Of a stretch of DNA of 62,408 nt, positions 54,424 through 55,739 are shown one piece after another. Location: assembly GCA_005808665.1 (NCBI GenBank), contig SYLG01000019.1, forward strand, positions 1-62,408, read 5' to 3'. Source of the stretch: Planctomycetia bacterium. GTDB taxonomy: Bacteria; Planctomycetota; Planctomycetia; Gemmatales; Gemmataceae. The position numbers and the translations under genes were made by a program. Under the pieces are notes generated by a model. The model searched no databases and was not told the DNA's origin. It was given only the letters and a program-made list of their open reading frames with translations. Numbering within the stretch: position 1 is the stretch's first letter; every line of letters begins with the position of its first letter.

Positions 54424-54446
54424 GTAAAAAAAGGGCACCTGCCCTT
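54424..54446 (-). terminator. Weak leftward terminator-like hairpin upstream of dinB
   Basis: Read on the minus strand: AAGGGC, loop AGGT, GCCCTT, then a run of T. It would stop leftward transcripts coming antisense through dinB from the lipid-kinase gene before they enter tex. The last two pairs share bases with the -35 box of the dinB promoter (54445-54450). The stem is only 6 bp. Confidence 0.3.
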
Positions 54447-54473
54447 GACTATACATCTGTTACCATGTATACA
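54445..54473 (+). promoter_or_regulatory. dinB promoter, predicted leaderless
   Basis: TTGACT (54445-54450), a 17-bp spacer and TATACA (54468-54473) are close to the sigma-70 consensus. The transcription start would fall at about 54480-54481, only 2-3 nt before ATG 54483, so the mRNA is predicted to be leaderless. There is no Shine-Dalgarno upstream of the ATG, in agreement. The palindrome ATGTATACAT (54465-54474) overlaps the -10 box. Confidence 0.6.
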
Positions 54474-54474
54474 T

Positions 54475-54490
54475 ATGTTCATATGAACAT
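54475..54490. promoter_or_regulatory. Candidate LexA (SOS) operator over the dinB start
   Basis: ATGTTCATATGAACAT is a perfect 16-bp palindrome with the core TGTTC-ATAT-GAACA. I recall a LexA motif TGTTC-N4-GAACA reported for Verrucomicrobia, a PVC relative; this matches exactly (from memory, not looked up). Its position over the transcription and translation start of a DinB-type polymerase gene fits SOS repression. Confidence 0.5.
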
Positions 54491-55739
54491 TTTGCACCTG
54501 GACATTGATGCCTTTTTTGCCTCGGTCGAACAGCGTGATGATCCCTCCCTTCGAGGACGACCTGTGGCGGTTGGAACAGGTGTCGTTGCCAGTTGCAGTT
54601 ATGAGGCCAGATGTTTTGGCGTGCGTACGGCAATGCGTCTTTCCGAGGCTCGAAAGCGGTGCCCTGGCCTTCTCATTCTCCCTGGGGATTATCGCCGTTA
54701 TGAACAAGCCGGACGCCATGTTCTGGCCATTTGCAAAGATGTTGTCGAACGGGTTGAAGTTTCTGCCTTGGATGATCTTTACCTTCTTCTGCCGGTTGAA
54801 AAAAACGATGCGATTCGCTTGGGAGAATCCCTGCGGGAACAGATAGGTGAAGAAGTGAAATTAAGTGTTTCCCTTGGAATTGGCATCAATAAATTGGTTG
54901 CTTCGGTTGCCACCCAGGAGGCGAAAAACCGGCGATTGGAGACCTTCGGCGGCAATTTGCGGTCGTGGATGGATCAGAATCGTCCCCTGCCACCCTCACC
55001 GGTGGTTGGGGTAGATCCTGGCCGGGAAAGAGAATATCTCGCCCCTTGGCCCGTGGATATTCTTCCGGGTATTGGTTTTTCCACCCTCCGCAAGCTTGAA
55101 CCCCTTCGCCTTGCCACCGTGGATGATTTGGCCCAAATTCCCCGAGCCCTCCTTTGTGGCCTTTTGGGAAAACAGGGTGACCGGCTTATACGCTTTGCCC
55201 AAGGAATTGACGATCGACCGGTGGAATCCGCCAAAAACCAAACGAGAATTGGAAGGCGTGCCAGTTTTGATCCTCCCGTTTCCAATCGCGAATTTCTCAT
55301 GGCACTTACCAGTCATTTGGTTGATCGAGCCACAAGTTGGTTGAGGTGGAAGGGACACCATACCCGCGGCTTGAAATTATTTATGCGCTATGGTGACCAG
55401 CAGACTGGAGAGGGACATGCCTCTTTACCGCAATGGACGGATGATGAATCGCTTTTACGCAAAACGGCCCAGGATCTCCTCAATCGAAACTATAAACGGA
55501 GGTTACCATTGAGACTTTTGGGGATTGAACTTGGGCCACTCCAATTGGCGGTGGTTGAACCCCTTCTCTTTCCTGATCCACTTGCCTCCCGATTTCGGGA
55601 ACTGGTTGCTTGCAAGGATCATATTCGAGCGCGTTTCGGCTTTACCTCATTGCAAAATGCATCTTCCCTTTTGCTAGACAAAACTTTGGCAAAGGACCGG
55701 GAAAATTATCGTTTTCGAACACCCTGCCTAAGCCGCTGA
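54483..55739 (+). CDS. dinB: Y-family DNA polymerase (DinB/Pol IV-like)
   Basis: 418 aa from ATG 54483. Translesion polymerase of the DinB type. Palm motifs: HLDIDAFFASVEQRDDPSLRG (metal residues D7, and D9), VVASCSYEARCFGVRTAMRLSEARKRCPGLLILPGDYRRY, then SALDDLYLL with D97-D98 at the site of the usual Asp-Glu pair. SVSLGIGINKLVASVATQEAKN, the helix-hairpin-helix LPGIGFSTLRKLEPLRLATVDDL and the little finger follow. Earlier in-frame starts (54420, 54465) lack Shine-Dalgarno sequences and would precede the predicted transcription start. An upstream promoter and palindrome suggest SOS control. Confidence 0.92.
   Translation: MNILHLDIDAFFASVEQRDDPSLRGRPVAVGTGVVASCSYEARCFGVRTAMRLSEARKRCPGLLILPGDYRRYEQAGRHVLAICKDVVERVEVSALDDLYLLLPVEKNDAIRLGESLREQIGEEVKLSVSLGIGINKLVASVATQEAKNRRLETFGGNLRSWMDQNRPLPPSPVVGVDPGREREYLAPWPVDILPGIGFSTLRKLEPLRLATVDDLAQIPRALLCGLLGKQGDRLIRFAQGIDDRPVESAKNQTRIGRRASFDPPVSNREFLMALTSHLVDRATSWLRWKGHHTRGLKLFMRYGDQQTGEGHASLPQWTDDESLLRKTAQDLLNRNYKRRLPLRLLGIELGPLQLAVVEPLLFPDPLASRFRELVACKDHIRARFGFTSLQNASSLLLDKTLAKDRENYRFRTPCLSR

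Follow-up and report, generated by a model that had tools for sequence, protein, structure and literature searches.

The DNA analysed here is a stretch of 62,408 nucleotides from a Planctomycetia bacterium, referred to below as the window. It carries a gene for an error-prone Y-family DNA polymerase, preceded by a promoter in which several short elements overlap. The features of the locus are the following:

54445 to 54450, forward strand: -35 element TTGACT, read from the sequence; TTGAC[TAG] is kept in 9 of the 9 orthologous promoters compared
54450 to 54463, forward strand: weaker upstream LexA-like box TATAC-ATCT-GTTAC, which runs from the end of the -35 element into the spacer
54468 to 54473, forward strand: -10 element TATACA, read from sequence and conservation; the first five bases double as left half-site of the main predicted operator
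54468 to 54481, forward strand: main predicted LexA-type operator TATAC-ATAT-GTTCA (TATACATATGTTCA), from the learned motif and conservation
54476 to 54489, forward strand: palindrome TGTTC-ATAT-GAACA; the left arm is common with the operator, and coding sequence (ATG AAC ATT, Met-Asn-Ile) provides the right arm
54483 to 55739, forward strand: Y-family DNA polymerase (DinB-like) gene, 418 amino acids plus stop, from Pfam, with the start set by stop codons in a congener (G001)

The encoded protein has both the catalytic and the little-finger domain (IMS, PF00817, 8.1e-38; IMS_C, PF11799, 4.4e-13). Its best NCBIfam Pol IV score is 229.5 bits against a cut-off of 367, and the SxDE catalytic motif is absent, as ALDDLYL aligns with SLDEAYL/SIDEAYL and the catalytic Glu is replaced by Asp. 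We therefore refer to a Y-family polymerase rather than to DinB proper. Judged from its sequence, the polymerase (54483-55736) is a distinct Y-family subgroup. Its nearest named relative is a Planctomycetota metagenome genome, and a scan of genome contigs returned one planctomycete relative at 46% and otherwise mostly ordinary DinBs. Among the aligned orthologs a C-terminal PCL[ST]R tail is invariant, and L-D-D-L-Y is invariant across all eight, apart from the neighbours of its last residue.

What the first-pass annotation had read directly from this promoter was confirmed throughout: TTGACT and TATACA are separated by 17 nt, the two palindromes lie at the positions given, and no Shine-Dalgarno sequence is visible before the ATG at 54483-54485. 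It was also right to regard this ATG as the only family-consistent one. Further in-frame ATGs are present in the window at 54465 and 54420; in the congener G001 an in-frame TAG TAA lies a few codons 5' of the ATG, without another start codon between, which firmly sets the polymerase start at 54483. A consensus promoter scanner called no site at the polymerase promoter because TATACA lacks the final T. Support for the promoter comes from the TTGAC[ATG] and TATAC elements, which are conserved across orthologs. The second palindrome, ATGTATACAT at 54466-54475, spans the -10 element and is not kept even inside the genus, where G001 has TAAACATGTG.

Within the window's genus 9 nt separate the -10 element, which ends at 54473, from the ATG; in genus g22, which has the same layout, the ATG follows 7 nt past the -10. 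Together with the stop codons of G001, these distances support the predicted very short or absent leader, and a leaderless transcript would be the simplest reading. In genera g29, g19 and g36 the leaders of the orthologs are longer; leaderlessness would thus be lineage-specific and not general.

The genome contains a canonical lexA gene (TIGR00498, 199.9 bits versus a cut-off of 110.95; helix-turn-helix domain at C52:22072-22260). Its product has an Ala-Gly in the cleavage-site context MVAAGAPI and is homologous over its full length to LexA proteins of solved structure. To define the motif we applied unsupervised expectation-maximisation to promoters of relatives (13 recA and 19 lexA), with the window's own genus left out. 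The recA promoters alone gave TGaACAtaTGTtcA, the lexA promoters alone TaTACtnnaGTAtA and the pooled set TgTACanntGTAcA. The learned consensus is TGWACA-NN-TGTWCA (TgWACAnnTGTWcA), which is in the Gram-positive/cyanobacterial GAAC-N4-GTTC register. A 16-bp motif learned from recA alone had a shifted register, was unstable and was dropped. The form TGWAC-N4-GTWCA occurs with at most one mismatch in 13 of the 32 lexA/recA promoters of the relatives, and with at most two mismatches in 29 of the 32, versus 4 for the control. In a second order of the class, recA promoters gave TGTAC-N4-GTACA, again unsupervised.

Scored against the learned motif, TATACATATGTTCA at 54468-54481 ranks first of 62,395 window positions, at 17.4-18.8 bits (18.8 with the recA-derived 14-bp motif), and 6 Mb of simulated sequence contained no site scoring as high. 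With a 36-site profile it is the second-best match in the 4.48-Mb genome. Its left half TATAC is a variant of GTAC. The upstream box at 54450-54463 is the second-best match in the window (10.4 bits with the recA-derived 14-bp motif), and its AC-N4-GT core is kept in G001 (TGTACGCCTGTTCT) and G002 (TATACATCTGTTTC). The genome's own lexA promoter carries TATAC-TTTG-GTATA (TATACTTTGGTATA; 12.4 bits) across its -10, and similar boxes are found in most of the 19 lexA promoters of relatives; as the lexA box partly overlaps the -10, it may in part be conserved as a promoter element. The recA box is clear in most of the 13 relatives, while the recA promoter of the window's genus has only a weak site, ATGAC-ATCC-GTACA (ATGACATCCGTACA; 2-3 bits), which is identical in three congeners. 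A box TGAACATATGTATA near the start of an imuA-like gene in G042 (L254) lends support to reading the learned motif as that of LexA.

The strict pattern TRTACNNNNGTWYA matches the genome's own lexA and the polymerase. It is not enriched genome-wide (7 places versus 10 for the control), and we rejected it as a stand-alone regulon marker because it is too degenerate. Applied to 45 genomes under strict filters, the profile gave few matches. The top LexA-like site in the genome is TGTACACATGTACA (G000:C180:16242-16255; L075, L232). This site is conserved in a congener (G002:C99, L251), and the small zinc-ribbon ORF close to it, whose function is unknown, is a candidate for a new SOS gene.

Orthologs of the polymerase occur in eight genera of the order, at 47-93% identity. 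In the promoters that could be read, a -35 TTGAC is followed by 15-19 nt and then the box, which five genera besides the window's own (g22, g29, g19, g36 and g38) have conserved ahead of the orthologous polymerase gene. The boxes are:

own genus: TATACATATGTTCA / TAAACATGTGTTCA
g22: TATACATTTGTTCA / TATACGTTTGTTCA
g29 and g19: TATACATTTGTACA; in one g19 species TATACGCTTGTACA
g36: TGTATAT[CG]TGTTCA (TGTAT-N4-GTTCA)
g38: TGTATATAAGTACA, farther upstream

In g22, g29 and g19 the element takes the form TATAC-N4-GT[TA]CA and immediately follows the -35 spacer. In g25 and g57 the promoter was unread or lacks the box.

The conserved motif match, the presence of the motif at lexA and at the recA of relatives, the canonical LexA and the distance from promoter to ATG make it very probable that the polymerase promoter is a LexA-controlled SOS promoter, with TATAC-ATAT-GTTCA as its predicted operator and a leaderless mRNA as its product. 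SOS-type control by LexA, as the first-pass annotation had proposed, is thus supported by the learned motif, by conservation and by the presence of a lexA gene, whose absence would have refuted the proposal. Its placement of an operator over the promoter stands as well; the identity it gave to that operator probably does not, as the fitting site lies 8 bases upstream of the palindrome it had proposed.

From these features we infer LexA binding, repression, induction and the transcription start as follows. In undamaged cells a LexA dimer would occupy TATAC-ATAT-GTTCA (54468-54481), with its left half inside the -10 hexamer. The weaker box at 54450-54463, which covers -35 and spacer sequence, would probably be bound by LexA as well. 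This occupancy would exclude RNA polymerase. Upon DNA damage, RecA-stimulated self-cleavage of LexA would free the promoter, and transcription would start about 7 nt past the -10, 0-3 nt from the ATG at 54483. The resulting mRNA would be leaderless and translated without a Shine-Dalgarno sequence.

An operator of three half-sites was also considered. Here LexA would mainly bind TATAC-ATAT-GTTCA, the GAACA arm of the palindrome would be an added half-site, and an 8-bp shift would allow the dimer to clamp the start codon. The arrangement TRWAY-N4-GTTCA-N3-GAACA, or a near form of it, is present at the polymerase gene (dinB) of the window, at dinB of G037 and G038, and at recA of G052. Moreover, GAACA with at most one mismatch lies at offset 3 from the predicted boxes in 6 of 84 flanks, versus 0-2 at other offsets. 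This over-representation is mild and is a lead rather than a result: the numbers are small, the sequences are related and the offset was chosen post hoc. In the window's own genus coding constraint accounts for the GAACA arm, and the further tandem box that such a shift would use, at 54484 (TGAACATTTTGCAC), was rejected since its score as a full site is negative (-6.7). We consider this arrangement unlikely. It is equally improbable that LexA uses the composite TRWAY-N4-GTTCA-N3-GAACA as a functional operator, with GTTCA shared between a Gram-positive-type box and a Verrucomicrobia-type palindrome. If it were, the composite would be a living intermediate between two LexA motifs, and at the polymerase gene it would also clamp the leaderless start codon.

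Alternatively, the conserved TATAC...GTTCA could belong to the promoter alone, as a -10 with its discriminator, or a regulator other than LexA could bind it. The left half does overlap the -10 in both dinB and lexA. However, the recA-derived motif has TGAAC and TAAAC left halves besides TATAC and is thus more than a -10, and the motif is common to lexA, recA, the imuA-like gene and the polymerase. To our knowledge, GTTCA/GTACA at a fixed N4 spacing is part of no known sigma-70 element. We regard this explanation as quite unlikely, and LexA as the preferred occupant of the box.

The first-pass annotation had placed LexA on the palindrome TGTTC-ATAT-GAACA over the start codon, on the basis of the LexA motif TGTTC-N4-GAACA that Erill et al. 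reportedly described for Verrucomicrobia in 2016. The match at 54476-54489 is exact. In the window the motif occurs once against 0.08 expected. Perfect 14-nt palindromes of any sequence are no rarity there, numbering 12 against 4.0 expected. Within the 4.48-Mb genome, however, TGTTC-N4-GAACA is not enriched (4 places versus 5 for the reversed control). The other three places are in or adjoining genes unrelated to DNA repair, and none coincides with lexA, with recA or with a further SOS gene; the polymerase itself was the only match among SOS genes genome-wide, an outcome that the first-pass annotation had itself named as refuting its reading. In the 32 promoters of relatives (19 lexA, 13 recA) the motif was absent at up to one mismatch, and at up to two it occurred in 5, versus 4 for a scrambled control. 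Relatives in the window's order have counts near control. With the 14-bp models the palindrome ranks only 17 to 87 in the window.

Among the orthologous promoters, the GAACA arm is present only in the window's own genus, as coding ATG-AAC-AT, and in g36. The palindrome is absent before the g22, g29 and g19 orthologs, yet the box in the other register is intact there. Non-coding copies of the same layout precede the orthologous gene in G037 and G038 (TGTTC-AAA[AT]-GAACA) and recA in G052, but in these cases too sequence in the other register overlaps the palindrome. In the window the palindrome arises because the Met-Asn-Ile codons supply a GAACA 3 nt after the right half of the operator, GTTCA. 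TGTTC-ATAT-GAACA is probably not an independent LexA site, and binding of LexA to it as a Verrucomicrobia-type motif is very unlikely.

The motif also recurs in other genomes. G052, a class-level relative, has TGTTC-N4-GAACA at 10 places versus 2 for the control, among them before recA (L076 / L234) and at an imuA-like gene (L242), and its lexA carries TGTACACTTGTACA. Upstream of its recA, TGAATATGTGTTCATTTGAACA contains both registers, overlapping much as in the window. We rejected the loci in G045 (16 versus 2 for the control) as a LexA signal, as the eight inspected adjoin or lie in genes that are not SOS-like. In G122, TGTTC-ATTA-GAACA / TGTTC-TAAT-GAACA occurs about a dozen times, apparently as a repeat dispersed through the genome and not as a regulon.

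In E. coli, dinB, which encodes DNA polymerase IV, is regulated by LexA. The polymerase described here shares with E. coli DinB the Y-family fold and, as predicted, SOS-type control. It differs in having ALDDLYL in place of SLDEAYL, a predicted leaderless start and a predicted LexA box of another type. The Verrucomicrobia motif has GTTC in common with the predicted operator and an exact match 8 bp downstream of it, but its half-sites are oppositely oriented, and in this genome it is found at no lexA, recA or other SOS gene save the polymerase. A single base change in each half-site separates TGTAC-N4-GTACA from the form of either register.

The cyanobacterial LexA box, RGTACNNNDGTWCB / AGTACWNWTGTACT (PMC3091678), is likewise a 14-bp pseudo-palindrome with an AC-N4-GT core, mixed GTAC/GTTC half-sites and equal spacing. 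It belongs to another phylum and has outer A/G...T where the planctomycete motif has T...A; in the latter the left half also serves as the -10 and is for this reason often TATAC. The Gram-positive box CGAAC-N4-GTTCG of B. subtilis and M. tuberculosis (PMC3323433, PMC3091678) has the same register and spacing, and its right half GTTC is identical in the window. Its outer C/G is T/A here, and the left half is more commonly TATAC or TGTAC than GAAC. On planctomycete LexA, the literature searched states only that it fails to recognise the motif of E. coli (PMC3108266), and we found no paper there defining a planctomycete LexA motif. The polymerase promoter offers a concrete example of a predicted LexA half-site inside a -10 hexamer, combined with a predicted leaderless mRNA. 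The predicted motif TGWACA-NN-TGTWCA, common to lexA, recA, an imuA-like gene and the polymerase, would tie these planctomycetes to the Gram-positive/cyanobacterial LexA type and not to that of the related phylum Verrucomicrobia.
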